From Tistrella mobilis KA081020-065 (lineage in GTDB: Bacteria; Pseudomonadota; Alphaproteobacteria; Tistrellales; Tistrellaceae), in contig NC_017956.1 of assembly GCF_000264455.2 (NCBI RefSeq), positions 310,001 to 374,000 of the forward strand: DNA of 64,000 nt. Reading direction: 5' to 3'. Positions 29,562-40,320 of this stretch are shown here, piece after piece. The translations under genes and the position numbers were made by a program. Each line of letters starts with the position of its first letter. The stretch's first letter is position 1. Under the pieces are notes generated by a model that was not told the origin of the DNA, searched no databases, and was given only the letters and a program-made list of their open reading frames with translations.

Positions 29562-31505
29562 TCAGGCCTGGCCCGCCCGGTAGCGCCGCGGTTCCAGCCC
29601 CAGCGCGCGGATCCGCGAGGCGAGGGTGGTTGCCGGCAGGCCGAGCAGGGCGGCGGCCCCGTTCGGGCCGTAGACCCGGCCGCCACACCGGCTGAGGGCG
29701 GTTTCGATCATCCGTCGGTCACGGTCGCGGCGGCCGGCTTCGGTCAGCAGCTCGTCCTCGTCCCCGGCCAGGGCAGGCGCTGCGGGCGCCGCTGCCGGGC
29801 CGGCATGCAGGGCGGCAGATGGCTCCAGATCGAAGCGCAGCCGCCCGCCCCGGGCCAGGATCGCCGCCCGTTCGATCACATTCTCCAGCTCGCGGACATT
29901 GCCCGGCCAGTCATAGCCGGTCAGCCGCTCGACATCGCCGCGGGTCAGCCTGAGATCGGGGATGTTCAGCCGCCGGCAGGTCTTGGCCAGAAAATGGGCC
30001 GCCAGCAGCGGCACGTCATCCAGCCGCTCGCGCAAAGGCACGCTCTCGATCGGGAAGACGTTGAGGCGGAAATAGAGATCTTCGCGGAACCGGCCGCGGC
30101 GTACCTGATCCTTCAGGTCTCGATTGGTGGCGGCCACGATCCGCACATCCACCGCCCGGGTCCGCTCTTCGCCGACCCGCTCGAAATGGCCCTCCTGCAG
30201 CACCCGCAGCAGCTTGCTCTGCAGTTCCAGCGGGATCTCGCCCACCTCGTCCAGGAACAGCGTGCCGCCATCGGCCAGGTCGAACCGGCCGACCCGGTCG
30301 CGCACCGCGCCGGTGAAGGCGCCGCGGACATGGCCGAAGAACTCGCTTTCGAACAGCTCCCGCGGGATGGCTGCGCAGTTCACCCGGATCAGCGGCCGGT
30401 GCGACCGGCGGCCGGCTTCGTGGATCGCCCGCGCGATCAGCTCCTTGCCGGTGCCGCTTTCGCCGGTGATCAGCACATTGGCATCGGTTGGTGCAACCAG
30501 GTCGATCTGGCGGGCGATCGTCTGGATGGCGGCGCTGCGGCCGATGATGTGGTGGTGGTTGACCTCGGTGCGGATCTCTTCCAGCAGATAGGCATTCTCG
30601 CGCTCCAGCCGCTCGCGCAGCGCGTCGACCTCGGCCAGGGCGGCATGCAGCCGTTCCTCCGCCTCCCGGCGGCTGGTGACGTCGCGGAACACGATCACGG
30701 CGCCGACCACCACGCCGCGGTCGCGGATCGGCGTGCTGGTATATTCCACGCGGATCGGTCGGCCATCCTTTCGCCAGAACACTTCGTCGTCGATCTGCCG
30801 GACCTCCCCCTCGCGGAAGGCGGCGTAGATCGGGCATTCATGCTCGGGATAATGGCTGCCATCGGCATGGGTGTGGTGGACCATGCCATGCATGTCGCGG
30901 CCCACCAGTTCTTCCGCCCGCCAGCCCAGCAGACGTTCGGCGGCCGGGTTGACGAAGGTGGTGTGGCCCTCGGCATTGATGCCGTAGATCCCCTCGCCCG
31001 CGGCCCGCAGGATCAGCTGGTTCTGTCGCTCGACATCGCGGAAGAAGCGTTCCACCCGCCGCCATTCGGCGATACCGCCCTTCAGATAGGCGTCGGCCTC
31101 GGCATCGACCTCGCGGCGGTGGCGTTCCTCAAGATCCGTGATGGTCAGCAGGACCAGCCCCGCGCCTGGCCCGTCGAGCCGTGCGCCTTCGTACTCGACC
31201 GCCACCTCGCTGCCATCGGCACGGCTGGGGGCCAGGCCGCGGGTCACCGCCTGGCCCTGGTCCAGAACCGCCTCGGTGAAGACCACCAGCGCCGGCATCT
31301 GGCCCTGATGCAGCGCGCTCATCCGGCGCGTGGCGAGCACCTCCGGCGGCAGGCCGAACAGCCGGCCTGCCGCCGGATTGGCATGCAGGATCAGATCGGC
31401 CACGGGATCGAAGACCAGCATCGGCCGCGGGCTGGCGACGATGATCGCCTCCGCCAGGGCATCGGCCCGGCGGGCGTGGTCGGATGGTGCTGCGGTATCG
31501 GGCAT
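29562..31505 (-). CDS. Sigma-54-dependent transcriptional activator with two PAS domains
   Basis: This 647-residue enhancer-binding protein has two PAS domains (about residues 15-125 and 155-280), a coiled coil (280-312), a sigma-54 AAA+ domain (about 320-560) and a Fis-type helix-turn-helix at the C-terminus (about 605-645). Walker A GESGTGKE is at 348-355, the sigma-54 contact GAFTGA at 395-400 and Walker [12 protein letters not shown] at 413-423. The second PAS contains [12 protein letters not shown] with a cysteine that could sense a ligand or redox state. It is divergent from the cyanate-type operon whose promoter is a sigma-54 match, so it is the likely activator. Start 31505 has GGAGG 6 bp upstream. 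Confidence 0.92.
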
Positions 31506-31556: not shown

Positions 31557-31609
31557 CACGAAACTTCGTGAAACCAACCACGATATTCCGTGGATCACGA
31601 CATATCGTG
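31557..31609. promoter_or_regulatory. Three inverted repeats, candidate enhancer sites for the sigma-54 activator
   Basis: CACGAA-AC-TTCGTG (31557-31570), CCACG-ATATTC-CGTGG (31578-31593) and CACGA-CATA-TCGTG (31596-31609) share a CACGA/TCGTG core. Their centres are about 22 and 17 bp apart, roughly 85-130 bp upstream of the -24 box, the usual distance for enhancer-binding-protein sites. Confidence 0.75.
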
Positions 31610-31624
31610 GTCGCTCACGTCGAT

Positions 31625-31675
31625 TGGGTTTCGAAAATTTATCGAATTATATCAGATAGATAAATGGATTTCGTC
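31625..31675 (+). promoter_or_regulatory. AT-rich spacer, possible IHF bend site
   Basis: A locally AT-rich run with TTTCGAAAATTTATCGAATT and TATCAGATAGATAA lies between the inverted repeats and the -24/-12 promoter. The position suits DNA bending by IHF, but the match to the IHF consensus is partial. Confidence 0.4.
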
Positions 31676-31679
31676 CGTC

Positions 31680-31695
31680 TGGCCCGGCGGTTGCA
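31680..31695 (+). promoter_or_regulatory. Sigma-54 (-24/-12) promoter of the cyanate-type operon
   Basis: TGGCCCG-GCGG-TTGCA matches the consensus TGGCACG-N4-TTGCA at all but one position, with GG (31681-31682) and GC (31693-31694) exactly 10 bp apart. It lies 76 bp upstream of the first gene of the operon. Confidence 0.85.
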
Positions 31696-31771
31696 GAACA
31701 GAAGCCCGGGACGCGGCATCCCCCGCCTGCCGCCCGGCTGTTCAGACCGTTCATCCGTCAGGGAGTGACAC

Positions 31772-33175
31772 ATGACGATCAAGAGCCTCGGCGACGCCTT
31801 CGATCCGGATGTCGACCTCGGCCATGGCCGGCAGTGCGGCTGCGCCGCCTGCGCCACGACCTCTGCCCGGCCGACCTCCGCTCAATCTGGCCCGGCGCTG
31901 CCCGTGGGCGAAGAGGCGCTGGTCGATCGGGTGGTCGAGAATGCGGTCGTCCGCTCCATGTTCGGCGGCAACGAGATTGCCCGGCGGTCGTTTCTGAAGA
32001 CCGTGGGGGCGGGGGCCTTTGCGGCAGCGCTGGCCTCGGTTCTGCCGCTCGACCGGGTGAAGGCGGCGGTCAAGGACGGCATGACCGGCGGTGGTCCGCT
32101 CGAGAAGACGAAGCTCAACATCGGCTTCGTCCCGATCACCTGCGCCACCCCGATCATCATGGCCCATCCCATGGGCTTCTATGAACGCCGCGGCCTGGAT
32201 GTGCAGGTGATCAAGACCGCCGGCTGGGCGGTGGCGCGCGACAAGTCGCTCAACAAGGAATACGACGCCTCGCACATGCTGACGCCGATGCCGCTGGCGA
32301 TCACCATGGGGGCGGGCTCGACCGCTCAGCCCTTCCTGATGCCGGCGGTGGAGAACATCAACGGCCAGGCGATCGTGCTGCATGTCGATCACAAGGACAA
32401 GCGCGACCCCAGGGACTGGAAGGGTTTCCGCTTCGGCGTTCCCTTCGAATACTCGATGCACAATTTCCTGCTGCGCTATTACGTCGCCGAGCACGGGCTC
32501 GACCCCGACAAGGACATCCAGATCCGGGTCGTGCCGCCGCCGGAGATGGTCGCCAATCTGCGCGCCGGAAATCTGGACGGCTACCTGTCGCCGGATCCGT
32601 TCAACCAGCGTGCCGTCTGGGAAAAGGTCGGCTTCATCCATCTGCTGACCAAGGACATCTGGGAGGGGCATCCCTGCTGCGCCTTCGCCTGTTCCAAGGC
32701 CTTCGCCGAAGAGATGCCGAACACCTATGGCGCCCTGGTCATGGCCCTGCTGGAGGCGACCTCCTATGCCGCCGATCCGGCCAATCGCAAGGAGATCTCG
32801 GCCGCGATCGCGCCCGCCAATTATCTGAACCAGCCTGTGCCGGTGATCGAGCAAGTGCTCACCGGCCGCTTCGCCGACGGGCTGGGCCAGGTGCAGGACG
32901 TGCCCGACCGGATCGATTTCGATCCCTTCCCCTGGCATTCGATGGGGGTATGGATCCTGACCCAGATGAAGCGCTGGGGCTACATTTCGGGCGAGATCGA
33001 CTATCGCGGCATCGCCGAACAGGTCTATCTCGCCGCCGAAACCGGTGCCTGGATGAAGGAGCTGGGCCTGACCCCGCCCGAGGTGACTTACGAGCCCCAC
33101 ACCATCATGGGCAAGACCTTCGATCCGGCGGATCCCGAAGGCTATCTCGCCTCCTTCGCCATCCGGCGCAGCTGA
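31772..33175 (+). CDS. cynA: CynA/NrtA-type ABC transporter substrate-binding protein (cyanate/nitrate family)
   Basis: This 467-residue receptor belongs to the NrtA/CmpA/CynA family that binds nitrate, bicarbonate or cyanate. A twin-arginine signal, RRSFLKTVGAGAFAA, begins at residue 71; mature protein starts about residue 98, with KLNIGFVPITCATPIIMA following. A 70-residue acidic, soluble-looking N-region with CGCAAC (Cys22, 24, 27) precedes the Tat motif. The start at 31772 is supported by AGGGAG 7 bp upstream, and no internal ATG near the Tat motif has one. The neighbouring cyanase makes cyanate the likeliest ligand; nitrate or bicarbonate remain possible. Confidence 0.82.
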   Translation: MTIKSLGDAFDPDVDLGHGRQCGCAACATTSARPTSAQSGPALPVGEEALVDRVVENAVVRSMFGGNEIARRSFLKTVGAGAFAAALASVLPLDRVKAAVKDGMTGGGPLEKTKLNIGFVPITCATPIIMAHPMGFYERRGLDVQVIKTAGWAVARDKSLNKEYDASHMLTPMPLAITMGAGSTAQPFLMPAVENINGQAIVLHVDHKDKRDPRDWKGFRFGVPFEYSMHNFLLRYYVAEHGLDPDKDIQIRVVPPPEMVANLRAGNLDGYLSPDPFNQRAVWEKVGFIHLLTKDIWEGHPCCAFACSKAFAEEMPNTYGALVMALLEATSYAADPANRKEISAAIAPANYLNQPVPVIEQVLTGRFADGLGQVQDVPDRIDFDPFPWHSMGVWILTQMKRWGYISGEIDYRGIAEQVYLAAETGAWMKELGLTPPEVTYEPHTIMGKTFDPADPEGYLASFAIRRS

Positions 33176-33199: not shown

Positions 33200-34030
33200 A
33201 TGATGCCGTCGCTCCGCATCCGTGCCGCGATCCTGTCGGTGGCGGTGCTGGCTCTGCTGCTGGGGGTCTGGGAACTCTCCAGTGCAGCCCCGGCCGCTTC
33301 GGCCGCGCAGGATGAATATGCCCGTCTGATGGGCGGTGCCGACACCCAGGCCCGTCTGCCGGCCCCCTCCGACATTCTGACGCGCGCCTGGGAAGAGATA
33401 TCGGATCCCTTCTACGACGCCGGCCCCAACGACAAGGGGATCGGTATCCAGATCGGCTATTCGCTCTACCGGGTGGCGGCGGGCTATCTGGCCGCGGCCG
33501 CCATCGCCCTGCCGCTCGGCTTCCTGATCGGCATGTCGCCGCTGGCCTACCGGGCGCTCGACCCGTTCATCCAGGTGCTGCGGCCGATCTCGCCACTCGC
33601 CTGGATGCCGCTCGCGCTGTTCGTGATCAAGGACAGCCAGATGTCGGCGATCTTCGTGATCTTCATCTGCTCGATCTGGCCGATGTTGCTCAATACCGCC
33701 TTCGGTGTCGCCAATGTCCGGCGGGATTGGGTGAATGTCGCCCGCACCCACGAACTCGGGCCGGTCTCGACCGCCCTCAGGGTCATCCTGCCGGCCGCTG
33801 CGCCCACCATCGTGACGGGGATGCGGATCTCGATCGGCATCGCCTGGCTGGTCATCGTGGCGGCAGAGATGCTCGTGGGCGGCACCGGCATCGGCTACTA
33901 CGTCTGGAACGAGTGGAACAATCTCGATCTCACCAGCGTGGTGTTCTCCATCCTGATGATCGGTCTGGTCGGTATGGCGCTGGATGCGCTGCTCGGCGCG
34001 CTCGCCCGCGCCGTGGCCTATGCCGATTGA
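33200..34030 (+). CDS. cynB: CynB/NrtB-type ABC transporter permease
   Basis: This 276-residue BPD-type permease has an N-terminal helix, a long periplasmic segment to about residue 85, and five further helices. The family segments PLGFLIGMSPLAYRALDPFIQVLRPISPLAWMPLALF and the coupling loop WVNVARTHELGPVSTALRVILPAA are typical of NrtB/CynB/TauC-type permeases. GGGAGACC lies upstream of the double-ATG start. It follows the binding-protein gene by 24 bp and precedes the ATPase gene by 18 bp. Confidence 0.85.
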   Translation: MMPSLRIRAAILSVAVLALLLGVWELSSAAPAASAAQDEYARLMGGADTQARLPAPSDILTRAWEEISDPFYDAGPNDKGIGIQIGYSLYRVAAGYLAAAAIALPLGFLIGMSPLAYRALDPFIQVLRPISPLAWMPLALFVIKDSQMSAIFVIFICSIWPMLLNTAFGVANVRRDWVNVARTHELGPVSTALRVILPAAAPTIVTGMRISIGIAWLVIVAAEMLVGGTGIGYYVWNEWNNLDLTSVVFSILMIGLVGMALDALLGALARAVAYAD

Positions 34031-34048: not shown

Positions 34049-34954
34049 ATGACGAGCGCACGCCCCTTTCTCGACGTCTCAGGCCTGGCAAAACGCTTCC
34101 CCACCCGGGGCGGTGGCGAGACCACGGTTTTCGAGCAGGTCGACTTCACCATGGATCGTGGCGAATTCGTCTGCGTGATCGGCCATTCCGGCTGCGGCAA
34201 ATCCACCATCCTCAACATCCTGGCCGGACTCGACAGCGCCTCCTCGGGGGCGGTGGTCATGGATGGTCGGGAAATCTCGGGCCCCGGCCTCGACCGCGGC
34301 GTGGTGTTCCAGAATTACAGCCTGCTGCCCTGGGCGACGGCGCTTGAAAACGTGGTCTTTGCCATCCGCGCCCGACATCGTGACTGGTCGCGGCAGCAGA
34401 TCCGCGCGCATGCGCTCAGCCATCTGGCCAAGGTCGGACTGTCCGGCGGGGCGGAGCACCGCAAGCCGGCCGAACTCTCGGGCGGCATGCGGCAGCGGGT
34501 CAGCATCGCCCGGGCTTTTGCGATCGAGCCCCGGCTGCTGCTGCTCGACGAGCCCTTCGGCGCACTGGATGCGCTCACCCGCGGCACCATCCAGGACGAG
34601 CTGATCCGCATCTGGTCCGATACCGACCAGAGCGTGTTCATGATCACCCATGACGTCGATGAGGCGATCCTGCTCGCCGACCGGATCCTGCTGATGACCA
34701 ACGGCCCGCGGGCCCGGATCGCGGAGAGCGTGGTCATCGATATCCCGCGGCCGCGGGCCCGGGACACCATCCTGCACGATCCGGCCTTCTATGCCATCCG
34801 CAACCATCTGGTCGAATTCCTGACCCGGCGCTCGCGGGAGCTGGCCGCCGGGGCCGCCGGCGCGGGCACCGGTGCCCCGCGCACCGTGCGTTTCGGCCGC
34901 GACGGCAGTGCCCAGGGCGTGGATGTCGTGCCCTTCCAGCGTGCCGCCCGTTGA
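34049..34954 (+). CDS. cynD: CynD/NrtD-type ABC transporter ATP-binding protein
   Basis: This 301-residue ATPase has Walker A GHSGCGKST, Q-loop VFQNYSLLPWATALENV, signature LSGGMRQR, Walker B LLLLDEPFGALD and the H-loop THDVDEA. It is the NrtD/CynD/SsuB-type nucleotide-binding subunit. A C-terminal extension of about 50 residues is rich in alanine and glycine and lacks the solute-binding-like domain of NrtC. GGAGAGAGG precedes the ATG. It closes the transporter and is followed by the cyanase gene after 59 bp. Confidence 0.86.
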   Translation: MTSARPFLDVSGLAKRFPTRGGGETTVFEQVDFTMDRGEFVCVIGHSGCGKSTILNILAGLDSASSGAVVMDGREISGPGLDRGVVFQNYSLLPWATALENVVFAIRARHRDWSRQQIRAHALSHLAKVGLSGGAEHRKPAELSGGMRQRVSIARAFAIEPRLLLLDEPFGALDALTRGTIQDELIRIWSDTDQSVFMITHDVDEAILLADRILLMTNGPRARIAESVVIDIPRPRARDTILHDPAFYAIRNHLVEFLTRRSRELAAGAAGAGTGAPRTVRFGRDGSAQGVDVVPFQRAAR

Positions 34955-35013: not shown

Positions 35014-35487
35014 ATGAACATGACCAAGACCTCCACCGATGCGCCGCTGTCCAAGGCCGATGCCACGGCGCTGATCCTCGCCGCCAAGGCGGCGCATGGC
35101 CTGACCTGGGAGGCTATCGCCGAGGGCATCGGCATGTCGCCGGTCTGGACCACCTCGGCGGCACTGGGCATGAACAGCATGCCGCTCGAGAAGGCGCAGG
35201 CGCTGGTGGCCCTGCTCGACCTGCCGGCCGCTGTCGTGCCGGCACTGGTCGCATTCCCGACCAAGGTCTGGGACCAGGCGGTGCCGACGGACCCGGCGAT
35301 CTATCGCCTCTACGAGATCGTGGGTGTCTATGGCGAGACGCTGAAAGAGATCATCCAGGAGAAGTTCGGCGACGGCATCATGAGCGCGATCGACTTCACC
35401 ATGCATGTCGACAAGGTCGAGGACCCCAAGGGCGACCGGGTCAAAATCACCATGAACGGCAAATTCCTGCCCTACAAGGCCTGGTGA
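35014..35487 (+). CDS. cynS: Cyanase (cyanate hydratase)
   Basis: CynS decomposes cyanate with bicarbonate to ammonia and carbon dioxide, giving the cell nitrogen and detoxifying cyanate. The 157-residue protein has the N-terminal helix-turn-helix-like segment (about residues 12-75: LTWEAIAEGIGMSPVWTTSAALG) and the catalytic domain with YRLYEIVGVYGETLKEIIQEKFGDGIMSAIDFTM, which contains the catalytic Arg, Glu and Ser. It ends with the typical GKFLPYKAW. The start has GAGGA 7 bp upstream. It is the last gene of the sigma-54-controlled operon. Confidence 0.96.
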   Translation: MNMTKTSTDAPLSKADATALILAAKAAHGLTWEAIAEGIGMSPVWTTSAALGMNSMPLEKAQALVALLDLPAAVVPALVAFPTKVWDQAVPTDPAIYRLYEIVGVYGETLKEIIQEKFGDGIMSAIDFTMHVDKVEDPKGDRVKITMNGKFLPYKAW

Positions 35488-35646: not shown

Positions 35647-36294
35647 ATGACCGGTGCGAAGGTGCGGCGCACGCAGGAGGAGCGGAGCGCCGAAACCCGC
35701 GACAAGCTGCTCTATGCGACGCTCGACGTGCTGATGGAGGCCGGCCATGCCCGGCTGGCCACTCAGGCGGTCTGTGAACGCGCTGGCGTGTCGCGCGGCG
35801 CGATGCTCCATCACTACCCTACCCGCAGCGAGCTGCTGGTCGCGGCGATCGAGCGGCTGCTCGACGACGAGATCATCGAGATGCGCGGCATGGCCGCCTC
35901 GGTGCGTTCGGGCGCGATCGGCCTGGATGCTTTCGTGGACGATCTGTGGCGGCGCTTCTCGGGCCGGCTGTTCTACATCACGCTCGAACACATCACCGCT
36001 GCCCGGACCGATGACGATCTGCGCGACGCGCTGCTGCCGGTGGTGAAGCGTTTCCATGTCGCGCTCGACGACATGTGGACCGAGTTTTTCGAGGCCCGCG
36101 GCACGGCCGACCGGGCCACGACCACCGTCCTCAATCTGACGCTCTGCCTGCTGCGCGGCATGGGCGCCCAGACGGTGCTGAAACCGGATCCGGACTATTA
36201 CCAGGACCTGCTCAGGGCCTGGAAGACGATCCTCGCATCCCTCGTGGAGGGGCGGGGCTCAGGCGGCACGCTGGCGGGGAGCGTCGGCGTGTGA
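35647..36294 (+). CDS. TetR/AcrR family transcriptional regulator
   Basis: This 215-residue regulator has the N-terminal TetR helix-turn-helix (about residues 12-60: RDKLLYATLDVLMEAGHARLATQAVCERAGVSRGAMLHHYPTRSELL is the full domain) and an all-helical ligand domain containing FYITLEHITAARTDDDLRDALLP. The ATG at 35647 follows GGGGAGAGGGAG; an upstream ATG at 35620 would add nine residues. It is placed just ahead of the branched-chain-type importer operon in the same direction and probably controls it, with autoregulation through the palindrome upstream. Confidence 0.85.
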   Translation: MTGAKVRRTQEERSAETRDKLLYATLDVLMEAGHARLATQAVCERAGVSRGAMLHHYPTRSELLVAAIERLLDDEIIEMRGMAASVRSGAIGLDAFVDDLWRRFSGRLFYITLEHITAARTDDDLRDALLPVVKRFHVALDDMWTEFFEARGTADRATTTVLNLTLCLLRGMGAQTVLKPDPDYYQDLLRAWKTILASLVEGRGSGGTLAGSVGV

Positions 36295-36389
36295 AATCCA
36301 CCCGCACAATCGATCGGCCTCTCAAGAAGGGCCGGCGGCAGCTCCCCGGCGGGGCGGCGGGTTCTCGGGATGGCAAGGAGAAGACAGGG

Positions 36390-37628
36390 ATGGCAGGACG
36401 GATTGAGGCCCGCATGCGCCGGGCCGTGACGGCAGGCGTTTCACTCGCGGTGATGTCCCTCGCGCTCGGTGGCGCGGCACAGGCGGAGACCGCACCCTTC
36501 AGGATCGGGGCGCTGAACCCGGTCACCGGCGCCGGCAGCCCCTATGGCCCGGGCATGCAGAAGGCAATCATCCTCGCGGCGGACGAGGTGAACGCCGCAG
36601 GTGGCGCCTGCGGCCGCAAGCTGGAAGTCTCAGCCGAAGATACCCAGACCTCGCCCGAAGCTGCCGTGCTGGCGGTGAAGAAGCTCATCGAGGTAAACAA
36701 GGTCGATGCGGTGATGGGCACCTGGTCGTCGGGCATCACGCTCGCGGTCATGCCGATCACCACCCAGGCCGGGCTGCCGCTGCTGAACACCTCGGGCGCG
36801 CCGGCGATCTCCACGGAAGACAAGGCCGATCTGGTCTGGCGTTTCCAGGCGACCAATGACCGTTTCGGTCAGGCCTTCGCCAAGATCGCAACCGAGCGCG
36901 GTTTCAAGCGTCCGGCGACCATGGCCTATAACAACGCCTCCGGCATCGGCAATACCGAGGGCTTCACCAAGGCCTGGACGGCCGCAGGCGGCGAGGTCGT
37001 CTCCAGCGTGGTCTACGAGCCCAAGCGGCCGAGCTACCGCTCCGAACTGCAGCAGATCCTGGCGGCGAACCCCGACGTGATCGTCATGGGGTCTTATCTT
37101 CAGGACACCACCGTCATCCTGCGCGAATGGTATCAGAGCGGCCAGAGCCCGGATGTGAAGTGGATCATCCCCGGCTGGGCCGCCAATCAGCAGCTGATCG
37201 ATGCGCTGGGCCCCGACGTGCTCGCCAATGTGATCGCGGTCGACAGCATCAGCAATGAGAGCGCGCCGTCTTACGCCCATTTCGAAGCGGCCTACAAGAA
37301 GACGATGGGGGCAGACGCCCCGGCCAATGTCTATGCGGCGATGACCTATGACATGGTGATCGCCTGGGGCCTGGCCATGCAGCAGGCCTGTCCCGACACG
37401 ACCATTGCGGCGGTGAACGGCAGCATCCGCGCGATCGATGCCGCCGATGGCGCGCCGGTCTACACCTTCGCCGAGGGCAAGGCCGCGATCGAGGCCGGCC
37501 GCAAGGTGAACTATGAAGGCGCCTCCAGCCGCCTCTCCTTCGACCAGTATGGCGACGTCACGCCCGATTTCAGCCTGTCGGAGATCGATGGCGGCGCCTT
37601 CGTCCGCAAGGGCGTGGTCTCGTTCTGA
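36390..37628 (+). CDS. Branched-chain amino acid-type ABC transporter substrate-binding protein (LivK-like)
   Basis: This 412-residue periplasmic protein has a Sec signal peptide (basic MAGRIEARMRR, hydrophobic core, likely cleavage after AQA around residue 32). The Peripla_BP_6 fold is seen from APFRIGALNPVTGAGSPYGPGMQKAI, VNKVDAVMGTWSSGITLAVMPITTQAG and YEPKRPSYRSELQQILAANPDVIVMGSY. Start is supported by AAGGAG 9 bp upstream. Family members bind amino acids, amides, urea or aromatic acids, and the ligand is not determinable here; the amidohydrolase at the operon end is the best hint. Confidence 0.87.
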   Translation: MAGRIEARMRRAVTAGVSLAVMSLALGGAAQAETAPFRIGALNPVTGAGSPYGPGMQKAIILAADEVNAAGGACGRKLEVSAEDTQTSPEAAVLAVKKLIEVNKVDAVMGTWSSGITLAVMPITTQAGLPLLNTSGAPAISTEDKADLVWRFQATNDRFGQAFAKIATERGFKRPATMAYNNASGIGNTEGFTKAWTAAGGEVVSSVVYEPKRPSYRSELQQILAANPDVIVMGSYLQDTTVILREWYQSGQSPDVKWIIPGWAANQQLIDALGPDVLANVIAVDSISNESAPSYAHFEAAYKKTMGADAPANVYAAMTYDMVIAWGLAMQQACPDTTIAAVNGSIRAIDAADGAPVYTFAEGKAAIEAGRKVNYEGASSRLSFDQYGDVTPDFSLSEIDGGAFVRKGVVSF

Positions 37629-37715
37629 TCCGGACCGGCCGTGCCCGCTCAGGCGACGCTTCGGCGCGCCGGGCGGGTCGGCCGCCTCGTTCCGGCCTCC
37701 CGTTCCGGGGTCCCC

Positions 37716-38588
37716 ATGGATACCGCCTATTATCTCAACCTGGCCTTCAACGGCCTGGTCGAGGGCTCGATCTATGCCCTCGGCGCGCTTGCGATCACGC
37801 TGGTTTTCGGCATCGCCCGCTTTCCCAACGCCTCCACCGGCGACCTGATGACGGTCGGCGCCTTCGGCGGCCTTGCCGGCACGCTGGCCGGCGGCGGGCT
37901 TCTGGGGGCGGCGATCGCCGGGGTCGGCGTCTCGGCTGCGGTGGCGCTCGCCTTCCATTTCCTGCTGTTCCGCAATCTGGCCCGGCGCTCGGCGGTGGCC
38001 TCGATGATCGCGTCGATCGGTCTCGCCTTCTTCCTGCGCTCGGCGCTTTCCTTCATCTTCGGCCATGATCAGCGGGTCTACGACCTGCCGCTGACCCGTG
38101 CGGTCCTGTTCGGGCCGATCCGGGTGCAGCCGACAGATCTGCAGGTGATGGGGGCGGCAGCTGCCGCACTGGCGGTGACTTTCGCCGTGCTGCACCTGAC
38201 CCCGATCGGCCGCAGGATGCGGGCGGTCGCCGACAATCCCGATCTCGCCCGGGCCTCGGGCATCAATGCCGGGCGGGTGATGGCGGTGATGTGGCTGATG
38301 GCGGGCGGGCTGGCCGGGCTCGGCGGCGTTCTGCTGGGCGCCAAGACCGTGGTGACCCCCGAAATGGGCTGGGATCTGCTGCTGCCGGCCTTTGCCGCCA
38401 CCATCCTCGGCACGATCGGCAACCCGATCGGCGCCGTTCTGGGCGGGCTGCTGATCGGCCTGGTGCAGGAGCTGTCCACCCCCTTCGTCGGCTTCACCTA
38501 CAAGATCGGCATGGGGTTCGCGGTGCTGCTGCTGATGCTGATGATCCGGCCGCAGGGGCTGTTCGCCCGCAACGCGCTGGTTCGCTGA
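37716..38588 (+). CDS. Branched-chain amino acid-type ABC transporter permease (LivH-like)
   Basis: This 290-residue permease has about eight membrane helices with the LivH pattern NGLVEGSIYALGALAITLVFGIARFPNASTG at the N-terminus, then GRRMRAVADNPDLARASGINAGRV (the coupling region) and GTIGNPIGAVLGGLLIGLVQEL. The ATG at 37716 starts the hydrophobic N-terminus; an upstream in-frame start would add an arginine-rich stretch. It is 87 bp downstream of the binding-protein gene. Confidence 0.88.
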   Translation: MDTAYYLNLAFNGLVEGSIYALGALAITLVFGIARFPNASTGDLMTVGAFGGLAGTLAGGGLLGAAIAGVGVSAAVALAFHFLLFRNLARRSAVASMIASIGLAFFLRSALSFIFGHDQRVYDLPLTRAVLFGPIRVQPTDLQVMGAAAAALAVTFAVLHLTPIGRRMRAVADNPDLARASGINAGRVMAVMWLMAGGLAGLGGVLLGAKTVVTPEMGWDLLLPAFAATILGTIGNPIGAVLGGLLIGLVQELSTPFVGFTYKIGMGFAVLLLMLMIRPQGLFARNALVR

Positions 38589-38600
38589 GGGAGGCCGCCC

Positions 38601-39506
38601 ATGGAAAGCTATCTGGTCGCGGTCGCGGTGGTCACGGCGATCTACATGCTGATGACTTTCGGCCTGAACCTGCAATACGGCTTCACCGGCCTGATCAATT
38701 TCGGCCTGGTCGGCTTCTTCGCCATCGGCGCCTATACGAGCGCCCTGCTGGTGATGGCGGGCTGGCCCCTGCTGCTGGGCTTCGCTGCGGCGGCCCTGCT
38801 GGCGGCTCTTGCCGCCTGGCCGGTGGCGCTTTTGTCGCTGCGGCTCAGGATCGAGTATTTCGCCATCGTCATGCTCGGTTTTTCCGAGACCGTGCGCCTG
38901 GTGATCACCAACGAGCGTGCGCTGACCGGCGGCGTTCAGGGGATCCCGGGCATTCCATCGGCCGCCCAGGCGCTGGGCGTGGAGGGGGTCGACGGCAATC
39001 TGCTGACCCTGATCCTGCTGGTGGTGGCGGTGATCCTGGTGCTGGCGGTCAACTGGCGGCTGGTCCACAGCCCCTTCGGCCGGATGATCCAGGCGATCCG
39101 CGACGATGAAGAGGCGGTGCGGTCGCTGGGCAAGCATCCGGGCCGGTTCAAGGTCACCGTGTTCATGGTCGGCAGCGCGTTCACCGGCCTCGCCGGCGCC
39201 TTCTACGCCCATTACGTCACCTTCGTGACCCCGGAACAGTTCGTCCCTCTGCTCACCTTTTATGTCTGGGTGGCGATGATCTTCGGCGGTGCGGGCCGGG
39301 TGGGCGGGGCCGCGATCGGCACCGTCGTGCTGATCGGCTTCCTTGAAGGCTCGCGCTTCCTGCGCGATGCCCTGCCGGGTGTCTCCGAAGTCGAGATGGC
39401 GAGCCTCAGGCTGGGGGTGGTCGGCGTTGCGCTGATGCTGCTGATGCGCTTCCGCCCGGACGGCATTCTGGGTGCGCCGTCGGCCGGCACGAAGAAGGGG
39501 GGCTGA
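38601..39506 (+). CDS. Branched-chain amino acid-type ABC transporter permease (LivM-like)
   Basis: This 301-residue second permease has the LivM signature GLNLQYGFTGLINFGLVGFFAIGAYTSALL near residues 20-49, EYFAIVMLGFSETVRLV and a coupling segment SPFGRMIQAIRDDEEAVRSLGKHPGRFKV. GAGGGAGG precedes the ATG. It pairs with the LivH-like subunit to form the channel. Confidence 0.88.
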   Translation: MESYLVAVAVVTAIYMLMTFGLNLQYGFTGLINFGLVGFFAIGAYTSALLVMAGWPLLLGFAAAALLAALAAWPVALLSLRLRIEYFAIVMLGFSETVRLVITNERALTGGVQGIPGIPSAAQALGVEGVDGNLLTLILLVVAVILVLAVNWRLVHSPFGRMIQAIRDDEEAVRSLGKHPGRFKVTVFMVGSAFTGLAGAFYAHYVTFVTPEQFVPLLTFYVWVAMIFGGAGRVGGAAIGTVVLIGFLEGSRFLRDALPGVSEVEMASLRLGVVGVALMLLMRFRPDGILGAPSAGTKKGG

Positions 39507-39510
39507 ACCG

Positions 39511-40320
39511 ATGAGCCATCCTGACACCATCGCCGCCGCCGATCGTCAGCTGGCGGTCGAGGGCGTTTCCAAAAGCTTCGGCGGCGTGCAGGTGCTGACC
39601 GATATCGGCTTCTCGGTGCCAGTCTCGGGGCTTTCGGGGCTGATCGGCCCCAACGGTGCCGGCAAGAGCACGCTGTTCTCGGTCGTCAGCGGTTTTCAGC
39701 CGGGCGATGCCGGCCGGGTCAGCTTCGCCGGCCGCGATCTCAGCCGGATGGGGCCAGTGGAGCGGGTGCGCGCCGGGCTGGGGCGCACCTTCCAGGTGCC
39801 GCGGGTCTTCGGCAGTCTGAGCGTGCGCCAGAACCTGGCGGCCGCTGCCCCGGGGCAGGCGGGGGAGACCCTGGCCGGCGTGTTCTTCCGCGGTGCCCGC
39901 ATTCGCCGCCAGGAAGCGGAAATCGCGGCGCGTGCCGACGGCATTCTGGAATTTCTGAACCTCGCCCGCGTGGCCGACAAGCCGGCGGGCGGCCTGTCGG
40001 GCGGTCAGCGCAAGCTGCTGGAATTGGGCCGCGCCCTGATGGTCCGGCCGAAGATGATCCTGCTTGACGAGCCTTTCGCCGGGGTGAACCCCGTGCTGAT
40101 CGAAGAGATCGCCGACCGGATCCGTGCGATCCGCGAGACCGGGGTCGACGGCAGCGGCGGCATCGGCTTCCTGATCGTCGAACACAACCTGCCCTCGCTC
40201 TCGGCCCTGGTCGAGCGGATGATCGTGATCGATCGCGGCCGGCTGCTGGCACAGGGCACGCCCCAGGCGGTGCTTGCCGATGCCCGGGTGCGCGAGGCCT
40301 ATATGGGGGGCGCGGTATGA
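39511..40320 (+). CDS. Branched-chain amino acid-type ABC transporter ATP-binding protein (LivG-like)
   Basis: This 269-residue ATPase has Walker A GPNGAGKST, a LivG-type Q-loop region (GLGRTFQVPRVFGSLSVRQNL), signature LSGGQRKLLELGRALM, Walker B ILLDEPFAGVNP and the H-loop EHNL. It starts 4 bp after the LivM-like stop, and its own stop overlaps the next start by four bases. Confidence 0.9.
   Translation: MSHPDTIAAADRQLAVEGVSKSFGGVQVLTDIGFSVPVSGLSGLIGPNGAGKSTLFSVVSGFQPGDAGRVSFAGRDLSRMGPVERVRAGLGRTFQVPRVFGSLSVRQNLAAAAPGQAGETLAGVFFRGARIRRQEAEIAARADGILEFLNLARVADKPAGGLSGGQRKLLELGRALMVRPKMILLDEPFAGVNPVLIEEIADRIRAIRETGVDGSGGIGFLIVEHNLPSLSALVERMIVIDRGRLLAQGTPQAVLADARVREAYMGGAV

Follow-up and report, generated by a model that had tools for sequence, protein, structure and literature searches.

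A conserved candidate three-site enhancer and putative sigma-54 promoter between cynF and the cynABDS genes of Tistrella mobilis

Cyanate (cyn) operons are controlled by the LysR-type regulator CynR in Escherichia coli and by NtcA in cyanobacteria, systems that have neither sigma-54 nor an AAA+ activator. How are the cynABDS genes of Tistrella mobilis KA081020-065 controlled, which adjoin a divergent gene for an activator, CynF? We analysed this locus within a 64,000-nucleotide stretch of contig NC_017956.1 (the window, whose numbering is used throughout). CynF carries an AAA+ domain with a GAFTGA motif and a C-terminal helix-turn-helix (HTH), as bacterial enhancer-binding proteins do, and a LysR-type CynR system was rejected here because the regulator adjoining the cyn genes is such a protein. 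On comparative grounds we consider it highly probable that the cynF–cynA gap is the control region for cyanate assimilation, in which three CynF-linked palindromes keep a fixed register with a sigma-54 promoter and are accompanied by an IHF-like site; CynF would drive activation from there.

The gap spans 266 bp between the starts of cynF (31505, minus strand) and cynA (31772). From cynF toward cynA, three 14-bp palindromes of the form CACGA-N4-TCGTG are followed by an AT-rich stretch (31630–31669) and then by a -24/-12 element (Table 1). A sequence-only reading of this DNA had picked out three CACGA/TCGTG inverted repeats, an AT-rich stretch and an exact GG-N10-GC element between a PAS-PAS-AAA+ activator and cynABDS. 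All of these were present and the repeats correctly placed, the middle one with one mismatch; profile searches agreed on the flanking genes, giving the activator a sigma-54 activation domain between a pair of PAS domains and a Fis-type HTH, and placing the cyanase above cut-off. The host genome (6.5 Mb, five contigs) has a single copy of rpoN. A search of it with CynF returned 13 matches including CynF itself, most of which cover the AAA+ part only.

Table 1. Features of the cynF–cynABDS locus, in window coordinates.
Feature	Position	Strand	Basis
cynF, PAS-PAS-AAA+(GAFTGA)-Fis HTH bacterial enhancer-binding protein	29562..31505	-	Pfam PAS, PAS_9, Sigma54_activat (4.5e-73), AAA_lid_14, HTH_8
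Candidate enhancer palindrome 1 (promoter-distal), CACGAAACTTCGTG	31557..31570	.	Sequence; conserved in relatives
Candidate enhancer palindrome 2, CACGATATTCCGTG, one mismatch, 22 bp from site 1	31579..31592	.	Sequence; conserved spacing
Candidate enhancer palindrome 3 (promoter-proximal), CACGACATATCGTG, 17 bp from site 2	31596..31609	.	Sequence; conserved spacing
IHF-like site, TATCAGATAGATA, in AT-rich spacer	31650..31662	+	Imperfect match here; position conserved in relatives
Putative sigma-54 -24/-12 element, TGGCCCGGCGGTTGCA	31680..31695	+	Sequence; site 3 starts 84 bp upstream, a spacing conserved in relatives
cynA, substrate-binding protein, cysteine motif ahead of twin-arginine signal	31772..33175	+	NMT1_2 (1.3e-88)
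cynB, ABC permease	33200..34030	+	TIGR01183 above cut-off
cynD, ABC ATPase	34049..34954	+	TIGR01184 above cut-off
cynS, cyanase	35014..35487	+	PRK02866 and TIGR00673, both above cut-off

As a triplet, the palindromes scored 29 of 30, against a maximum of 22 in 2000 dinucleotide shuffles of the gap. Exact YACGA-N4-TCGTR palindromes occur five times in the whole 6.5-Mb genome, and two of the five lie in this gap. When 289 alphaproteobacterial genomes were searched for the triplet, allowing at most three mismatches, seven matches were returned, each just upstream of cynA by its coordinates, and the reversed control gave none; among the genomes searched, the triplet sequence is thus specific to cyn. 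In the -24/-12 element, GG (31681–31682) and GC (31693–31694) are separated by exactly ten nucleotides, and the cynABDS transcription start is predicted near 31706. Loose matches to such an element were no more frequent in the window than expected by chance, and the pattern TGGCNCGN4TTGCW occurred 10 times in the genome versus 6 for its reversed control. The match alone is therefore weak evidence and not significant; it becomes convincing because its distance from the palindromes is fixed in relatives.

CynA relatives were taken from named genomes and a class sample, giving 104 cynA loci, 84 with a divergent CynF homologue. A scan of every spacing from 14 to 29 bp in 75 non-redundant loci ranked 22/17 best, with a mean of 23.3 of 30 against 21.0 for the runner-up and a median of 17.8. 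The triplet was found at 21–23 and 17–18 bp in 73 of the 84 divergent cynF/cynA loci, at 22/17 in 42; 11 lacked a clear triplet, and the Hyphomicrobiaceae have a variant. The triplet is present in a Pseudomonas sp. relative (L112) whose CynF is 59% identical. Measured from the start of site 3 to the promoter TGG, the distance was 80–85 bp in 63 of the 71 loci scored, 69–71 bp in four and 95–96 bp in two; of the two outliers, one (L057) has an element at the usual distance, though a weaker one. A second, phylum-wide sample contained the triplet in eight of nine loci with a divergent cynF and in none of nine without, with site 3-to-promoter distances of 70–72, 84 and 95. Most exceptions are shifts of about one helical turn, as an enhancer facing its promoter would require.

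The palindromes lie 52–104 bp before the cynF start, close enough that they could instead be where CynF represses its own gene, or where an unrelated repressor acts, the sigma-54 match then arising by chance. This reading is barely credible in view of a distance to the -24 box that is constant or off by whole turns, the co-occurrence of the palindromes with cynF and their covariation with the CynF helix (see below). Because of the same proximity, CynF acting at its enhancer may also restrain its own gene. A consensus scan found no sigma-70 promoter for cynF, and a TATAAT-like signal in the spacer was rejected as not conserved. At one locus, L110, an AACGA-type triplet at 22/17 is kept about 190–230 bp upstream of cynA, although 5 kb of upstream DNA yielded no CynF homologue; loss or relocation of cynF may explain this. 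Between palindromes and promoter, an IHF-like signal is conserved in position: the best WATCAANNNNTTR match across 58 non-redundant spacers averaged 7.05 of 9, compared with 6.35 after shuffling (largest shuffle mean 6.59), and fell 38–40 bases after site 3 in 30 of the 58.

Which protein binds the palindromes is suggested by loci in which they have changed. All five loci with PQT(L/V)YSR as recognition helix, in place of the usual TT form, have TATGA-N4-TCATA sites at the same spacing, whereas TACGA is preferred in 75 of 79 other loci. This joint alteration of palindromes and CynF helix suggests that CynF is the binder. The five loci form one clade (Hyphomicrobiaceae), so the covariation possibly reflects a single event and is suggestive only. 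Sites are partly changed too in two Thiomicrorhabdus loci (L048, L071) with the helix NPTTLNSK or a close form, and the TACGC-N4-GCGTA variants (L064, L068, L075, L097) followed no clear change in the helix. Taken with the co-occurrence of triplet and cynF, the helix/site covariation points to CynF as the protein that would occupy these sites.

An activator other than CynF must act at some loci. Those without a divergent cynF (L017–L030, L050, L090, L096, L107, L109, L123–L131) lack the palindromes and mostly have a good -24/-12 element; in 15 of 20 cynA loci without cynF, none of 60 shuffles matched it. Because these loci mostly keep the element, CynF is probably not the only route to sigma-54 control of this cyn type. 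They also lend something to the proposal that NtrC, the general nitrogen regulator, activates the sigma-54 promoter directly and the palindromes control cynF only, as does the ammonium repression of cyn reported for Pseudomonas pseudoalcaligenes (oleovorans) CECT5344. Against NtrC, the gap holds no NtrC-like box (best match 8 of 12), the palindromes and the -24/-12 element share a fixed helical register as expected of an enhancer of that promoter, and CynF is essential in CECT5344; we judge direct NtrC control very unlikely. At L107 and L109, a different enhancer-binding protein is encoded upstream in the same direction as cynA.

CECT5344 offers the closest precedent for CynF-driven activation. 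The main text of its description (PMC6627978) reports a cynFABDS cluster with the divergent regulator 268 bp upstream, a CynF described as a putative Fis-like sigma-54-dependent regulator and shown to be essential for cyn expression, expression that cyanate induces and ammonium abolishes, and a putative sigma-54 promoter before cynA. Its authors also noted a similar cyn gene distribution in alpha-, beta- and gammaproteobacteria (PMC6627978). The T. mobilis locus likewise has a divergent sigma-54 activator gene adjoining cynABDS and a -24/-12 element upstream of cynA; gene order, the Fis-like sigma-54-type regulator and the predicted promoter are shared, and the gap is 266 bp as against 268 bp. 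That main text differs in naming no enhancer sites, CynF domains or binding sites, its supplementary figure aside (PMC6627978). Local sigma-54 control by a divergent activator through the palindromes, as proposed in the sequence-only reading, is well supported by the comparative data. Its view that such control is unusual for cyn did not hold, because the same arrangement is published for CECT5344 (PMC6627978), and a divergent cynF is common (84 of 104 cynA loci). The locus is a further case of the known CECT5344 CynF system, and its type of control was already known.

The CECT5344 data also bear on what CynF senses. Under nitrogen-poor conditions cyanase activity could be measured there even with no cyanate, and with ammonium it was absent (Table 1 of PMC6627978), as would be seen if the triplet bound CynF and activation followed nitrogen status, CynF being no cyanate sensor. 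In the same strain, however, cyanate raised cyanase activity more than tenfold (2677 versus 145–208 units) and CynF was needed for the rise (PMC6627978), and we hold activation by nitrogen status to be unlikely. A model of CynF residues 1–300 (mean pLDDT 91) has two PAS domains linked by a long helix; the second is far more conserved and contains invariant H206, H210 and C224. Searches of solved structures gave generic tandem-PAS matches only, such as DosP, FixL and LOV proteins, and assigned no ligand.

The nearest architectural parallel is E. coli NorR-norVW, which shares a divergent enhancer-binding protein, three palindromic enhancer sites, an AT-rich spacer and a -24/-12 element. As in a NorR-like triple enhancer, three palindromes lie upstream of the putative sigma-54 promoter here. 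On the E. coli sequence we measured the NorR sites as 21 and 24 bp apart, the third starting 66 bp before TGG. All three NorR sites are needed (PMC2941729, PMC4987338), and they serve as a scaffold for a higher-order oligomer that is most probably hexameric (PMC2941729). NorR differs in responding to nitric oxide through a GAF domain and in its GT-N7-AC sites, whereas CynF carries a pair of PAS domains and goes with YACGA-N4-TCGTR sites spaced by 22 and 17 bp. NorR was the best NCBIfam model for the CynF AAA+ domain, yet at 379.9 bits against a cut-off of 476; identity with NorR was rejected on this sub-equivalog score and on the PAS rather than GAF sensor. FhlA, the formate hydrogenlyase activator, has a related half-site, its consensus CATTTCGTACGAAATG including TTTCGT/ACGAAA (PMC4987338), but in FhlA the half-sites stand in opposite order, the sensors are GAF domains and the signal is formate.

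For CynF-driven activation, these parallels suggest a working mechanism. Three CynF dimers would occupy the three palindromes, the enhancer DNA would help to assemble the AAA+ hexamer, as published for NorR, and IHF would bend the AT-rich spacer. The GAFTGA loop could then remodel RNA polymerase bearing sigma-54, so that transcription of cynABDS begins near 31706. With the CECT5344 phenotype as a guide, cyanate or a product may release the repression that the tandem PAS domains, and most likely the second of them, would impose, and ammonium may override the cyanate signal by some further route. A stronger version is less likely than not: that CynF senses cyanate directly through the second PAS domain and its three invariant residues, and that the near-invariant 22/17 palindromes are an obligatory hexamer scaffold whose site sequence co-evolves with the recognition helix between lineages.

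No description of CynF binding sites was found in the literature searched, which for CECT5344 covered main-text passages of PMC6627978. What seems to be new, provisionally, is therefore the three-site enhancer, which is strictly conserved and occurs in many alpha- and gammaproteobacteria. Because CynF/sigma-54 control is common in the sampled alpha- and gammaproteobacteria, cyn operons should no longer be viewed as mainly under LysR or NtcA control. The conserved triplet should make CynF regulons predictable from DNA alone and provides an exact target for tests. It also offers a second well-conserved case for asking if the register of an AAA+ hexamer is fixed by its enhancer DNA. The Hyphomicrobiaceae variant supplies a naturally occurring shift in DNA specificity that goes with the recognition helix.

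Two further observations concern the genes around the gap. Tens of residues before the twin-arginine signal, the N-terminus of CynA (31772–31990) and those of its relatives carry a short cysteine motif (for example CGC, CSCG or CTCTTC), found in most CynA homologues inspected. After cynS, positions 35650–40320 encode a TetR-type regulator and a branched-chain/urea-like ABC transporter operon.
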